Assembly (NCBI RefSeq): GCF_014696715.1
Contig: NZ_JACJQO010000006.1
Span: forward strand, 124,001 to 188,000
Origin: Pseudanabaena sp. FACHB-2040
GTDB lineage: Bacteria > Cyanobacteriota > Cyanobacteriia > Phormidesmidales > Phormidesmidaceae
Length of the DNA: 64,000 nucleotides
Reading direction: 5' to 3'
The position numbers were made by a program, and so were the translations under genes. Below are positions 19,871-25,968 of this stretch, piece after piece. The notes under the pieces were generated by a model. It was given only the letters and a program-made list of their open reading frames with translations. It did no database searches and was not told where the DNA came from. Numbering within the stretch: position 1 is the stretch's first letter; every line of letters begins with the position of its first letter.

Positions 19871-22300
19871 ATGAATTTTTCTGCCAAACCTCAAATTCTG
19901 ATTGTGGATGACTATCCCACCAACATTAAAGTGCTGTCAGATCTGCTGATTGAGTACGGGTTTGAGGTATTGATTGCGCGAGATGGGGAAAATGCTCTGC
20001 AAAAGCTGCAGCGAATCTTGCCCGATCTGATTTTGCTGGATGTGCTGATGCCTGGCATCGATGGTTTTGAAACTTGTCGCCAGCTCAAGGCCCAGGCCAC
20101 AACCCGCGACATTCCTATAATTTTCATGACCGCTCTAGCCGACCCAATAGACAAAATCAAGGGGCTGACGCTGGGGGCGGTTGACTACATCACCAAGCCC
20201 TTTCAACAGGAGGAGGTGCTTGCCCGTATCAACTCCCACCTGAAGCTGCGGCATCTGACCCGACAGCTAGAGCAGCAAAATTCCCGGCTGCAGGAAGAGA
20301 TTCGCTCTCGCCAAATTGCCGAGTCAGCCCTGCGTGTGTCAGAAGAGAAATTTGCCAAAGCTTTTCGCTCGAACCCTAGTCCCATGATGATCCTGACCCT
20401 GGAGGAGGGCCGAGTCACCGATATTAACCAAAATTGCTGTAAGGTTTTAGGCTGCCTGCCCGAGGCCGTTTTGGGCAGAACCTTTGATGATCTGCACCTA
20501 TGGGGGAGGGAGGATTGCGATCGCTTCCTAGCCGATCTGCGCGAAAGTGGGGCCATGCACCGCCAGGAGTACCAGTTCTACACCGTGACTGGCGATGTTC
20601 GCAGCCTGCTGATCTCCGCCGAAGTGATCCAGGTGCGAGAGCGGCTTTGCGTTCTGACAATGGCGCTAGATATCACGGACTCCAAGCAGGCCACCGCTGA
20701 ACTGCAGCAGGCCAAAACCACCGCTGAACTCGCCAATCAGGCCAAAAGCCAGTTTTTAGCCAATATCAGCCATGAACTGCGAACGCCGCTAAACACCATT
20801 TTGGGCTATACCCAACTCATGGCTCGCGATGCAGCGTTAACGATGGAACAGCAGGCAAGTCTCAACATCATCAGTCGCAGCAGTGACCACCTACTGACCC
20901 TGATCAACGATGTTTTGGAGATGACCAAGATTGAGTCGGGGCAGCTCAGCCTGCGCCCCACAGACTTTAATCTCCACAGCCTGCTCGATGCCCTTTCCGA
21001 AATGCTAGAGCCTAAGGTGCAGGCTAAGGGCCTGCACTTAATCGTAGAGCGCAGCCCCGATGTGCCGCCCTACGTGTGTACCGACGCGACAAAGCTGCGG
21101 CAGGTACTGATCAACATTGTCGGCAACGGCATTAAGTTTACAGAGTCGGGCCGGGTCAGTTTGCGGGTGTCGGTGAGCCAGCCTGATCCTCAACTGCCTA
21201 ACAGCTCTCAGCTAACTTTGCGCTTCGAAGTCGAAGATACCGGACCCGGCATTGCTACCGACGAGATTGACCTGCTGTTTGATCCCTTTATCCAAACAGA
21301 GAGCGGGCGACAGTCGCAGGAAGGAACCGGCTTAGGGCTGCCGATCAGCCAGCGGTTTGTGGAGCTTTTGGGGGGAGCCATTCAAGTTAACAGCGTAGTC
21401 GGAGTCGGCTCAACCTTTAGCTTTGAAATTCCGGTAAAGCGGGCGGCAGCACCAGAGACAGGCGGCAGCCCAGGAGTAGGGCAGCGAGTAGTGGGCTTGG
21501 CGGCAGGGCAGCCCACCTATCGGCTGCTGGTGGTAGAAGATCAAACGGCCAACCGTCAGCTCTTGGTCCAACTCTTTTCAAAGGTGGGCTTTGAGGTGCA
21601 GCAGGCAGTAAATGGGGAAGATGCGATCGCACAGGCCCAGATCTGGCAGCCTCACCTGATCTGGATGGATGTGCGTATGCCAGTGCTAGACGGCTACGAA
21701 GCCACTCGACGGATTAAGCAGCAAGCAGGAACTGAATCAACCCCCAAGATTATCGCCCTTACAGCCAATGCCTTTGAGGAAGAACGGGCAGCAGCCCTAA
21801 CAGCAGGCTGCGACGACTTCTTACGTAAACCGATCCAGGAAGAGAGCCTATTTAATAAAATGGCCGAGCATCTAGGGGTGCGCTACGCCTATCAAGACTT
21901 GCACCACCTCCCCTCAACAGCAACCCAAACAGCAGCATCCCCAGCTTCCCCCTTCCGCATCAAGCAAGCAAGCCGCGCTGAGCTGTGGGACATGGTCAAC
22001 GGCGATACCCACTTTTTGGCCGACTACCTAAGCCTCCACCTAGAACAGCTGCCCCAGCTGATGCAGGCTTTACGAGATGCGATCGCACAGCAGCAGCCAG
22101 AAGCCCTATCCCTAGCTGCTCACACTCTTAAGGGCATGGGCATGACCTTTGGAGCCAGCCGGTTCACCGACCTCTGCTTCAGCATCGAACGCGCTGCCAA
22201 AGCCGGAAATACCGACATTGCCCCAGCCCAGATGCAGCAGCTAGAAGCTGAACTAACTGGGTTAATGGCGGCTATTGGGTTAGAGGTTGGTAGTCTTTGA
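19871..22300 (+). CDS. Multidomain phosphorelay kinase: REC-PAS-HisKA-HATPase-REC-Hpt
   Basis: A soluble 809-residue protein. The N-terminal receiver has Asp57 (LLDVLMPGIDG). A short coiled coil leads to a PAS domain at about 160-275. HisKA has His301 ([10 protein letters not shown]), and HATPase has NIVGNGIKFT and GTGLGLPIS. A second receiver has Asp600 (MDVRMPVLDG). A C-terminal Hpt domain has His751 (AAHTLKGMG). All phospho-acceptor residues are intact. The N-terminal receiver could accept phosphate from the upstream hybrid kinase, making the pair a closed multistep relay. No DNA-binding output is present in either protein. Confidence 0.93.
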   Translation: MNFSAKPQILIVDDYPTNIKVLSDLLIEYGFEVLIARDGENALQKLQRILPDLILLDVLMPGIDGFETCRQLKAQATTRDIPIIFMTALADPIDKIKGLTLGAVDYITKPFQQEEVLARINSHLKLRHLTRQLEQQNSRLQEEIRSRQIAESALRVSEEKFAKAFRSNPSPMMILTLEEGRVTDINQNCCKVLGCLPEAVLGRTFDDLHLWGREDCDRFLADLRESGAMHRQEYQFYTVTGDVRSLLISAEVIQVRERLCVLTMALDITDSKQATAELQQAKTTAELANQAKSQFLANISHELRTPLNTILGYTQLMARDAALTMEQQASLNIISRSSDHLLTLINDVLEMTKIESGQLSLRPTDFNLHSLLDALSEMLEPKVQAKGLHLIVERSPDVPPYVCTDATKLRQVLINIVGNGIKFTESGRVSLRVSVSQPDPQLPNSSQLTLRFEVEDTGPGIATDEIDLLFDPFIQTESGRQSQEGTGLGLPISQRFVELLGGAIQVNSVVGVGSTFSFEIPVKRAAAPETGGSPGVGQRVVGLAAGQPTYRLLVVEDQTANRQLLVQLFSKVGFEVQQAVNGEDAIAQAQIWQPHLIWMDVRMPVLDGYEATRRIKQQAGTESTPKIIALTANAFEEERAAALTAGCDDFLRKPIQEESLFNKMAEHLGVRYAYQDLHHLPSTATQTAASPASPFRIKQASRAELWDMVNGDTHFLADYLSLHLEQLPQLMQALRDAIAQQQPEALSLAAHTLKGMGMTFGASRFTDLCFSIERAAKAGNTDIAPAQMQQLEAELTGLMAAIGLEVGSL

Positions 22301-22423: not shown

Positions 22424-22452
22424 TTGACGCTTTTGGTCGGGCTTGCTACAGT
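22424..22452 (+). promoter_or_regulatory. Sigma-70 promoter of the aroF leader
   Basis: TTGACG (22424-22429) and TACAGT (22447-22452) are separated by exactly 17 bases. Transcription should begin near 22459, about 19 bases before the first leader ORF. Confidence 0.7.
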
Positions 22453-22477
22453 TCTAAACAGGTAATTAAATTTTGCA

Positions 22478-22534
22478 ATGGTTTCTGCAGCCCGGCAGTT
22501 TTATTTTTGGTTTATGGAGGTTCACCGGCGGTGA
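22478..22534 (+). CDS. Aromatic leader peptide 1 of the aroF attenuator
   Basis: An 18-codon ORF, MVSAARQFYFWFMEVHRR, ending in TGA. Five consecutive codons (F-Y-F-W-F, 22499-22513) specify aromatic amino acids, the end products of the pathway opened by the downstream DAHP synthase. The ATG is 19 bases after the predicted transcript start; AGG at 22460-22462 is the only weak ribosome site. Directly after the aromatic codons, inside the ORF, lies GGTTCACCGG, which can pair with a downstream segment touching the terminator. This matches the design of ribosome-stalling leader peptides. Translation is inferred, not shown. Confidence 0.75.
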   Translation: MVSAARQFYFWFMEVHRR

Positions 22535-22590
22535 ATTCAGTTTTTGCTGAAGACCTCCGGTGAACCGCAGAGCGTGACCTCTGCGGTTTT
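22517..22590 (+). terminator. Attenuator 1: antiterminator and terminator hairpins
   Basis: The terminator is AACCGCAGAG (22563-22572) with CTCTGCGGTT (22579-22588), a 6-base loop and then TTGTTTTT. The competing helix pairs GGTTCACCGG (22519-22528), inside leader ORF 1, with CCGGTGAACC (22557-22566), sharing 4 bases with the terminator stem. Further local pairings are TTCAG/CTGAA (22536-22540/22547-22551), GGAGGT/ACCTCC (22517-22522/22553-22558) and TCACC/GGTGA (22522-22526/22530-22534). Confidence 0.75.
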
Positions 22591-22623
22591 GTTTTTACCC
22601 CACTTTCTCAATTAGCTTTAACA

Positions 22624-22689
22624 ATGACTGCTGCTAAGTATTGGTTTTTTGGATTTTTCTTTACCACCGGGTCAGGAACCGGAGGATAG
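22624..22689 (+). CDS. Aromatic leader peptide 2 of the aroF attenuator
   Basis: A 21-codon ORF starting MTAAKYWFFGFFF and ending in a glycine/threonine-rich tail and TAG. Seven of the eight codons from Tyr to the last Phe (22639-22662) are aromatic: Y, W and five F. The 10-nt segment CCGGGTCAGG (22667-22676) lies between the aromatic codons and the stop, so a ribosome stalled early would expose it and one at the stop would cover it. The ribosome site is weak. Together with the terminator after it, this is a textbook arrangement for attenuation by aminoacyl-tRNA supply. Confidence 0.8.
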   Translation: MTAAKYWFFGFFFTTGSGTGG

Positions 22690-22739
22690 GACTTCCTATG
22701 CCAACGACCTGACCCGGAGCTAACCCCTCCGGGTTTTTT
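22667..22739 (+). terminator. Attenuator 2: antiterminator and terminator hairpins
   Basis: The terminator is ACCCGGAG (22712-22719) with CTCCGGGT (22727-22734), a 7-base loop and TTTTT. The antiterminator pairs CCGGGTCAGG (22667-22676) with CCTGACCCGG (22708-22717), perfectly over 10 bp, and occupies six of the eight bases of the terminator's 5' strand, so the two are mutually exclusive. A small hairpin ATAGG/CCTAT (22686-22690/22695-22699) nests inside the antiterminator. Confidence 0.85.
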
Positions 22740-22831
22740 AATGCCAGGTTTCTAACGTTTTGCAGTTCCGTTTTTCGCAGATCCTTTGCAGATTCAAGTT
22801 CCAGCCCAGTTCACTCCCTTTAGGACTCAAC

Positions 22832-23689
22832 ATGAAAGACGCCAACCTTACCCTAAAAACCCACGCCGAGCACCAGACCCTGGTGAACATCAGTCCCTCT
22901 GTCACAGTCGGAGGAGATGACCTGCTGATTGTGGGCGGCCCCTGCACTGTTGAGAGCCTAGAACAAATGCAGCAGGTCGCCGCTCACCTCGTTAACGCCC
23001 CGGTTCAGGCTCTTCGAGGCGGCGTTTACAAGCCCCGCACCTCCCCCTATGCATTTCAGGGACATGGAGAAGCGGGGCTTCGAATTTTAGATGAAGTTCG
23101 ACAGACTCATCAGGTGCCGGTAGTTTCTGAGGTGATGGCGATTCACCAGATTGAGTCAATGCTGGCCCATGTGGACGTGCTTCAGGTGGGCAGCCGCAAC
23201 ATGCAAAATTTCGATCTCCTGCGGGCTTTGGGTCAGACCAACAAGCCCATACTGCTAAAGCGAGGTCTGGCCGCTACGATTGAAGAATTTGTCATGGCAG
23301 CTGAGTACATTGTCAGCCACGGCAACCCCAACGTTATGCTCTGTGAGCGAGGTATTCGCAGCTTCGATACCTACACTCGCAACGTGCTGGACTTAGGAGC
23401 AGTGGTTGCCCTCAAGCAGTTGAGCCACCTGCCGGTGATTGTAGATCCCAGCCACGCTGCGGGTAAGCGAGAGCTGGTGCCAAACTTAGCCAAAGCTGCG
23501 ATCGCAGCCGGAGCCGATGGCCTGATCATTGAGTGCCACCCTGTTCCTGAGGAATCTGTCTCCGATGCACGGCAGGCTCTCTCCTTGGAAGATATGGTCA
23601 GCCTAGTTCACAGCCTGCGCCCCATTGCCGCCGCTGTTGGTCGTAGAATTCCAGAAGCTGGTCCTATCCGTCAACCCGTTTTGGTTTGA
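22832..23689 (+). CDS. aroF: 3-deoxy-7-phosphoheptulonate (DAHP) synthase
   Basis: Catalyses condensation of phosphoenolpyruvate and erythrose-4-phosphate, the first step of the shikimate pathway to Phe, Tyr and Trp. The product from MKDANLTLK has 285 residues and belongs to the KDO8P-synthase-like DAHP synthase group: GGPCTVES at residues 35-42, [31 protein letters not shown], and [10 protein letters not shown] near the metal site. It has no chorismate mutase or ACT-type extension, so feedback control may rest largely on the leader described at 22424-22739. AGGA lies 7 bases before the ATG; the longer frame from 22760 begins with TTG and runs through the leader. Confidence 0.94.
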
Positions 23690-25417: not shown

Positions 25418-25462
25418 AGAACAATTCATTGCTGCATAAAACCAAGTTAAAAAAGCAACTTG

Positions 25463-25492
25463 TTGACCGGAGCAGGCTTCCTCTACTCTAAT
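25463..25492 (+). promoter_or_regulatory. Candidate promoter of hsp20
   Basis: TTGACC (25463-25468) and TCTAAT (25487-25492) are separated by 18 bases. It would give a 5' UTR of about 33 bases, as in known cyanobacterial hsp17 genes. No CIRCE element was seen. Confidence 0.4.
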
Positions 25493-25503
25493 CAGTTAGC
25501 TAC

Positions 25504-25526
25504 TTTTGCCTTAATTAAAGGAGGAA
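25504..25526 (+). promoter_or_regulatory. Probable RNA thermometer masking the hsp20 ribosome site
   Basis: In the RNA, UUUU-G-CCUU (25504-25512) can pair with AAGG-A-GGAA (25518-25526) around an AAUUA loop, with one G/A mismatch and two G-U pairs. The AAGGAGGAA strand is the Shine-Dalgarno sequence, ending 5 bases before the ATG. Short, weak SD-masking hairpins of this type control hsp17 translation in Synechocystis and other cyanobacteria. Confidence 0.6.
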
Positions 25527-25531
25527 ACGAT

Positions 25532-25968
25532 ATGATACTCATTCGTTGGGAACCTCTTCGAGAAATTGAAACCTTACAAAAAGAAATGAACCGTCTTTTT
25601 GATCAGTTAGGCTCGTCTGAGTTAAGCCAAGTCGGCAGTGGCGCTTTCTTGCCAGCAGCTGAAATGAACAAAACCGAAGAAGCTATTGACCTGAGGGTTG
25701 AGATTCCGGGTGTAGTCCGTGAAGATATCAATTTCAGGTCTCAGTTGCCTCTGTAGCTATCAGCGGGGAGCGCAGAACAGAGACTAAGACTGAACAGGAT
25801 GGAATGACCCGGAGCGAATTTCATTACGGTAAATTTGAGCGGGTGATTTCTCTGTCCAGTCGCATCCAGAATACTCATGTCGATGCTCAGTACAAAGACG
25901 GCATCTTAACGCTTCACCTACCTAAAGAAGAGGAGCAAAGCAAAGCCGTTAAGGTCAATCTTAGCTAG
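25532..25968 (+). pseudogene. hspA: Small heat-shock protein Hsp20, frameshifted
   Basis: The first part reads MILIRWEPLREIETLQKEMNRLFDQLG and on to EIPGVVREDIN, the N-terminus and early alpha-crystallin domain of cyanobacterial HspA/Hsp17. At about 25733 the frame breaks; the next frame continues VSVASVAISGERRTETKTEQDG, FHYGKFERVISL and GILTLHLPKEEE to a stop at 25966. The span is 437 bases, one short of 146 codons, so a single-base deletion around AATTTCAGG explains it. Both halves are otherwise intact and no other stop is present, so the event is recent or a sequence error. The in-frame product would be a 74-residue fragment lacking the crystallin core. Confidence 0.85.

Follow-up and report, generated by a model that had tools for sequence, protein, structure and literature searches.

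Candidate tandem attenuators with aromatic leader peptides precede a DAHP synthase gene in cyanobacteria

DAHP synthase catalyzes the first step of aromatic amino acid synthesis, the entry point of the pathway. In a 64,000-nt stretch of Pseudanabaena sp. FACHB-2040 DNA (the window), the gene for one such enzyme lies behind two short open reading frames crowded with aromatic codons, each followed by a terminator hairpin. Ribosome-mediated attenuation by charged aromatic tRNAs is the best explanation for this serial pair, and we consider it very probable from the sequence comparisons below. Sequence and comparison among relatives establish the leaders, their predicted alternative helices, the covariation of these helices and the linkage to the DAHP synthase gene; the events in the cell are presented as a model.

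Two leaders and two terminators in the window

The elements lie between a hybrid histidine kinase gene, which ends at 22300, and the DAHP synthase gene (Table 1).

Table 1. Positions of the predicted elements and of the controlled gene in the window
Feature	Position	Strand	Basis or remark
Promoter-like site (TTGACG, 17 nt, TACAGT; TG before the latter)	22424..22452	+	Ahead of both attenuators
Leader peptide 1, MVSAARQFYFWFMEVHRR then stop; control codons F8, Y9, F10, W11, F12	22478..22534	+	ORF; conserved in relatives
Attenuator 1, antiterminator 5' strand, GGTTCACCGG	22519..22528	+	Folding, covariation
Attenuator 1, antiterminator 3' strand, CCGGTGAACC; overlaps base of terminator 1	22557..22566	+	Folding, covariation
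Terminator 1 hairpin, then TGTTTTT	22562..22589	+	Terminator scan, covariation
Leader peptide 2, MTAAKYWFFGFFFTTGSGTGG then stop; ATG 22624, TAG 22687-22689	22624..22689	+	Aromatic codons from TAT 22639 through TTT 22660-22662
Attenuator 2, antiterminator 5' strand, CCGGGTCAGG	22667..22676	+	Sequence, folding
Small hairpin in the antiterminator 2 loop, beginning at the end of leader 2	22684..22702	+	Fold
Attenuator 2, antiterminator 3' strand, CCTGACCCGG; overlaps terminator 2	22708..22717	+	Sequence, folding
Terminator 2 hairpin, GACCCGGAG-CTAACCC-CTCCGGGTT, then T run	22711..22735	+	Terminator scan; covariation in relatives
Type I DAHP synthase gene (285 aa from ATG at 22832)	22832..23689	+	Profile matches, alignment to 1rzm

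An initial annotation of the window had described attenuator 2, proposing that a 10-nt segment between the aromatic codons and the stop pairs with a downstream complement when a ribosome stalls early, and is covered when the ribosome reaches the TAG. Leader, segment, complement and terminator all lie where that annotation placed them, and its statement that the complement uses six of the eight bases of the terminator's 5' strand is accurate: CCTGACCCGG has 22712-22717 in common with the 8-bp ACCCGGAG arm. The proposed fold comparison also came out as anticipated. With 22624-22740 unmasked, the antiterminator had a probability of 0.998 and the terminator 0.0; with 22660-22700 masked, the values were 0.0 and 0.977. 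In a codon walk, with RNA assumed free from 12 or 15 nt past the start of the A-site codon, stalls at any codon from Tyr6 to Phe9 gave the antiterminator a probability of 1.0, and with the ribosome at the stop codon the terminator reached 0.98. By folding, the mutually exclusive geometry claimed for this attenuator is complete. The antiterminator probability drops between stalls at Phe11 and Phe13, and a stall at the Phe codons at 22657 and 22660 would partly mask the segment and favor the terminator. The aromatic codons that would act as sensors are therefore mainly Tyr6, Trp7, Phe8, Phe9 and Phe11, leaving out the last one or two Phe codons of the run. Since the antiterminator of the window's attenuator 2 is predicted to win even without a ribosome, this attenuator shows no protector hairpin of the E. 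coli trp kind; no-ribosome folding in other loci had a mixed outcome (26 of 30 loci computed).

The window's attenuator 1 switches in the same direction as attenuator 2 but softly, the terminator probability going from 0.65 to 0.98 in the codon walk. The softness arises because its antiterminator uses just the bottom five pairs of terminator 1; the antiterminator and a shortened terminator can coexist, and exclusivity is partial.

A scan of both strands of the 64-kb window for an aromatic leader with a terminator returned these two pairs and no others. Among 2000 dinucleotide shuffles of 22440-22760, at least one such combination arose in three, and two combinations in none. In 48 of 91 distinct loci, a promoter-like site scoring at least 9/12 stands no more than 110 nt ahead of leader 1, compared with 2.2% of letter shuffles, and none was found between terminator 1 and leader 2 in the 87 loci that could be tested. 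With a site upstream of leader 1 and none between the attenuators, both most likely belong to one RNA and work in series, behind what appears to be a single promoter. By eye, no clear Shine-Dalgarno sequence precedes leader 1 or leader 2 of the window.

The product of the controlled gene exceeds the curated cut-offs for TIGR01361 and NF006421 (3-deoxy-7-phosphoheptulonate synthase), and matches Pfam PF00793. It also passes the cut-off of NF009239 (bifunctional, with chorismate mutase), of which the synthase part alone is matched. By gene, the closest named relatives among the matches listed are from Leptolyngbya (81% identity) and from other Leptolyngbyaceae and Nodosilinea (78%), in a ranking that may omit records very near the window's own. 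In alignment with the solved enzyme 1rzm (338 residues), the protein covers residues 79-337, and a longer cyanobacterial relative covers residues 1-334. Because its alignment begins at residue 79, the window's enzyme is without the N-terminal first part, which in 1rzm is regulatory. The window's genome holds a second, different type I DAHP synthase, in whose upstream region no aromatic leader or terminator was seen, and has no match to the type II family. Among longer DAHP synthases, 0 of 25 upstream regions had an aromatic leader followed by a terminator, in a scan that was not exhaustive and whose terminator search missed 6 of 30 second terminators elsewhere. From these comparisons, the tandem attenuators seem to be tied to one short DAHP synthase isoenzyme. 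Elsewhere in the window, an ORF at 25460-25756 resembles, by eye, the start of a small heat-shock protein and ends early at 98 aa; it is possibly frameshifted or truncated.

Conservation, leader composition and covariation

Of 59 genomes searched, one of them the window's own, 49 had a match, and 30 loci were fetched, again including the window's own. Both leaders and terminator 1 are present in all 30. The terminator scan finds terminator 2 in 24; in the remaining six (L003, L006, L007, L008, L015 and L018), missed because of longer loops, GC hairpins and T runs are visible by eye. A second set, from named genomes, comprised the best 80 of 577 loci; 78 of these 80 have at least 400 nt upstream. 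Among these 78, the covariance model of attenuator 1 matches 77 and that of attenuator 2 all 78, one of them (L176) weakly at E 0.0027. The leader 1 ORF is seen in 77/78 and the leader 2 ORF in 78/78, some leaders 2 having GTG starts; the exception, L144, is the same for model 1 and for leader 1. Model 2 also weakly matches attenuator 1 in two of the best 80. Genera with the attenuators include Nostoc, Calothrix, Tolypothrix, Nodosilinea, Leptolyngbya, Phormidesmis, Microseira, Symploca, Spirulina and Hydrococcus. The fetched and named sets overlap in part (e.g., L012 and L178), and each distinct sequence was counted once in the peptide, spacing and promoter statistics.

In a sample of 386 cyanobacterial genomes spread over the phylum, a search at E 1e-60 identified 38 that carry this DAHP synthase (identity at least 69%): 37 with whole genes and one, G427, with a split gene. 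Both attenuators were found in 36 of the 38. In one other genome only attenuator 1 was found (L093 in G166), and in another only attenuator 2, with a promoter-like sequence upstream by eye (L094 in G193); such solitary occurrences suggest that each attenuator is a unit in itself. Model 1 matches in 38 of the 386 genomes, always at E 7.7e-7 or better. For model 2, 37 genomes have matches with E-values no higher than 3.2e-6, after which the E-value jumps to 8.4e-4. The filters in both scans were stricter ones, with which weak matches are lost. Model 2 matches from E 8.4e-4 up to 0.1, which were the best in 93 of the 130 genomes listed, were taken as chance. The window's own genome has one good place per model. 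The only strong match outside the 38 genomes is in G085, ahead of a broken copy of the same gene. The initial annotation's logic is supported for attenuator 2 of the window, and the conserved unit is the pair of attenuators, not attenuator 2 alone.

Several individual loci deserve mention in their own right. At the G085 locus (L092, G085:C48:72600-75200), attenuator 1 stands before what is, by eye, a truncated DAHP synthase remnant, and no attenuator 2 was found, as in a decaying copy. In G427 (L095, G427:C1:3949800-3959500), the tandem attenuators precede a DAHP synthase gene that is interrupted by several kb of inserted DNA; the insert encodes a Phage_integrase-family recombinase and brings to mind the excision elements of heterocyst-forming cyanobacteria. 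G156 has a weak second match to model 1 (E 0.0185), in a stretch where the scan found no 100-codon ORF. Outside the window's class, G388 (L103, G388:C1:1425800-1427700) encodes a DAHP synthase 59% identical to the window's; upstream of it are a single aromatic leader, MKRFYYFSFYPNALRC then stop, and a terminator with the AACCGCA...TGCGGTT core, as in terminator 1. The system could thus date far back, which we offer as a lead and not as a result.

The leaders were compared in the 30 fetched loci together with 72 (leader 1) and 69 (leader 2) named loci; among the 78 named loci the search pattern missed leader 1 in three and leader 2 in seven, and three and two mispicks, respectively, were dropped. 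Phe occurs in all 91 distinct leaders 1, Tyr in 90 and Trp in 91, and all three occur in 92/92 distinct leaders 2; the Phe content is partly by construction, because the selection required aromatic-rich ORFs. The aromatic core often reads YFYFWF or WFYGFYFW, and its codons vary mostly by Phe-Tyr exchange and synonymous third bases. Mean non-majority fractions at codon positions 1, 2 and 3 were 0.011, 0.050 and 0.061 in the leader 1 core (90 sequences) and 0.062, 0.162 and 0.239 in the leader 2 core (76 sequences), a pattern modestly suggestive of coding. In 66 of the 86 leaders 2 measured, the last aromatic codon begins 21 nt ahead of the stop. With pairing segments located by pattern, the first Trp codon of leader 1 begins 11 nt ahead of the segment in 68 of 88 cases and 14 nt ahead in 19; that of leader 2 lies 25-35 nt ahead in 66/86 and 11-15 nt ahead in 14/86.

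So well conserved an aromatic core is also what might be expected if the leaders stalled the ribosome as nascent peptides, through sensing of a free metabolite in the exit tunnel, as the TnaC leader does, instead of through tRNA starvation. We regard this as improbable. The aromatic run tolerates Phe-Tyr exchange and varies in the number and position of its residues, the conserved VH tail of leader 1 is accounted for by RNA pairing of GGTTCAC, and the presence of codons for all three aromatic amino acids would suit tRNA sensing better.

Attenuation through charged tRNAs calls for alternative helices, and the antiterminators indeed share bases with the terminators in helices supported by covariation. 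As our measure we took alignment cells changed on both sides, relative to a shuffled mean, in counts that ignore kinship. Antiterminator 1 had 99.3% of cells paired, with 30 double-change cells against 6.6 in shuffles (29 sequences); in 75 distinct named-genome sequences, with the alignment fitted to the helix, the values were 96.4% and 39 against 6.2. Terminator 1 was 96.9% paired with 8 double-change cells against 1.1 in the first alignment, and 95.4% paired with 16 against 3.5 in a second that was not fitted to the helix. For terminator 2, a fitted alignment gave 90.9% pairing and 55 double-change cells against 14.2.

The common form of antiterminator 2 differs from the window's. In it, GTTCCGGG or GCTCCGGG before the stop pairs with CCCGGAAC or CCCGGAGC; an alignment not fitted to this helix (80 rows, two of them weak matches on attenuator 1) had 90.7% of cells paired and 24 double-change cells against 8.2 in shuffles. 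Doubly changed pairs (3 vs 2.4) and pair types (9 vs 9.5) were not above shuffles. Sliding the helix by one column came close to its covariation score (0.154 vs 0.163) but gave far lower pairing (60.8% vs 90.7%). The window's register, by comparison, had 62.6% of cells paired over 29 loci and 58.5% in shuffles. As a general rule, the 10-nt register of the initial annotation had to be rejected: the CCGGGTCAGG register is perfect in only 6/29 aligned loci (L001, L002, L005, L011, L013 and L017), all in two genera, with L009, identical to L005 in this region, omitted from the alignment. A later segment, nine columns downstream and just before the stop codon, pairs at all eight positions in 17 of the remaining 23 loci and at five to seven positions in the other six. 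One locus, L012, has both registers, with nine of ten pairs in the window's and eight of eight in the later one, and is a plausible intermediate between the two.

Folding in relatives and the proposed mechanism

We folded the 30 loci at equilibrium and compared the terminator probability between a ribosome placed early, at the first aromatic codon, and one placed at the stop. The stop position gave at least 0.75 in 60/60 cases (30 loci, both attenuators), and in none of the 60 was the terminator less likely there than for the early ribosome. For the early ribosome, the mean was 0.52 for attenuator 2 and 0.62 for attenuator 1. Terminator 2 was at 0.5 or above in 16/30 loci (0.9 or above in eight) and below 0.5 in 14, and terminator 1 was at 0.5 or above in 26/30 and below in four. 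About half of the relatives do not show the sharp all-or-none switch seen at the window's attenuator 2. Where terminators stay at 0.5 or above despite an early ribosome, the order of co-transcriptional folding must decide, or the simple model fails there. An antiterminator that formed first may hold, because the terminator is transcribed last; this is beyond the reach of equilibrium folding. As modeled, equilibrium folding over the 30 loci counts against the simple reading of attenuation.

Alternative RNA folds with terminators, together with the predicted antitermination of the window's attenuator 2 even without a ribosome, might also suit an RNA switch that binds a metabolite or protein (riboswitch, T-box-like or TRAP-like) and in which the short ORFs are incidental. 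Such a switch is very improbable here. The window holds no Rfam family at gathering score, the alignments show no conserved block beyond leader, pairing segments and terminator, and the aromatic ORFs are retained in 30/30 fetched loci and, among the best 80 of 577, in 77/78 and 78/78. Candidate Rfam membership (amino acid leaders, T-box, riboswitches) was rejected; four weak matches near the site lie far below gathering scores. That the elements, lying downstream of the kinase gene, are chance or that gene's ordinary terminators with accidental ORFs is hardly credible, as it is contradicted by the 3 and 0 of 2000 shuffles, the conservation, the covariation and the linkage to DAHP synthase.

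We return to ribosome-mediated attenuation, a reading of attenuator 2 already made in the initial annotation and now backed also by conserved leaders, covarying alternative helices and linkage to one DAHP synthase. In this model, two attenuators in series behind one promoter would control the gene, and a ribosome would translate each short leader with its many Phe, Tyr and Trp codons. When charged aromatic tRNA is scarce, the ribosome would stall early, the segment past the control codons would pair with the terminator's 5' arm, and RNA polymerase would read on. When the tRNAs are charged, a ribosome at the stop codon would cover the segment, the terminator hairpin would form and transcription would end. 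Full expression of the DAHP synthase would follow only when both terminators are passed. The model assumes coupling of translation and transcription in cyanobacteria.

We suggest tentatively, and with some doubt, that the serial pair may constitute an AND-like gate with different weights, standing in for the N-terminal domain absent from the window's DAHP synthase. The Trp codon of leader 1 would then be a late sensor, at the edge of masking. If so, Phe or Tyr shortage would open both switches, and Trp shortage alone would open the first only partly. Conserved in many cyanobacterial genera, the attenuator pair makes it possible to test, in this phylum and at the entry to aromatic biosynthesis, whether translation controls transcription.

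Relation to known attenuators

The classical ribosome-mediated attenuators of amino acid operons include those of E. coli trp, phe and his. The elements described here share with them a leader rich in codons for the end product, a stop codon beside the pairing segment, and an antiterminator alternative to an intrinsic terminator. Unlike the E. coli cases, they come as two in series, with DAHP synthase as the target and a cyanobacterium as the host; nearly all leaders contain all three aromatic amino acids, and no protector hairpin is predicted at the window's attenuator 2. In attenuators of the E. coli trp type the terminator forms without translation, whereas the window's attenuator 2 folds as an antiterminator without a ribosome.

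We found no prior report of these elements in the open-access literature searched, a scope that may not catch reports in subscription journals. A 2016 survey stated that there were no reliable data on attenuation in cyanobacteria (PMC4833913), and a 2026 paper (PMC13289151) describes cyanobacteria as being without Rho and, in Synechococcus elongatus, finds a minority of ends to have intrinsic terminators. No cyanobacterial or tandem attenuator cases were found in the text examined of PMC1262725. According to Naville and Gautheret (2010, PMC2965389), no leader peptide systems were known outside Proteobacteria and Actinobacteria before their own Firmicutes case, and the string 'cyanobacter' is absent from the main text of that paper. 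The same work describes the rimP-leader, which likewise has two terminator units with a potential antiterminator at the upstream one; it is Gammaproteobacterial and, unlike our pair, is not described there as an amino acid leader.

Two published systems resemble ours in their targets. The uORFC-13-1 motif upstream of aroF in Acholeplasma (24 representatives, attenuation proposed; Brewer et al. 2021, PMC8632094) also places an upstream ORF beside a terminator ahead of a DAHP synthase gene but, compared by its description, is reported from Acholeplasma and environmental sequences only. Attenuators have been predicted ahead of tyrA, and the aromatic supraoperon of Streptococcus pneumoniae displays two units ahead of aromatic biosynthesis genes (PMC1173090); likened here by description, these differ in being database predictions around tyrA, with leader peptides unmentioned in the relevant passages.

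A further parallel is the Salmonella mgtCBR leader, whose two short ORFs within one leader act as tandem attenuators (Lee and Groisman 2012, PMC3641672). There the two respond to different signals, ATP and proline, as described in that paper, whereas here both leaders carry one set of three amino acids and stand before a biosynthetic gene. The kind of mechanism is already known; what is new, as far as the literature searched shows, is the serial pair for the same signal, its cyanobacterial host and its target.
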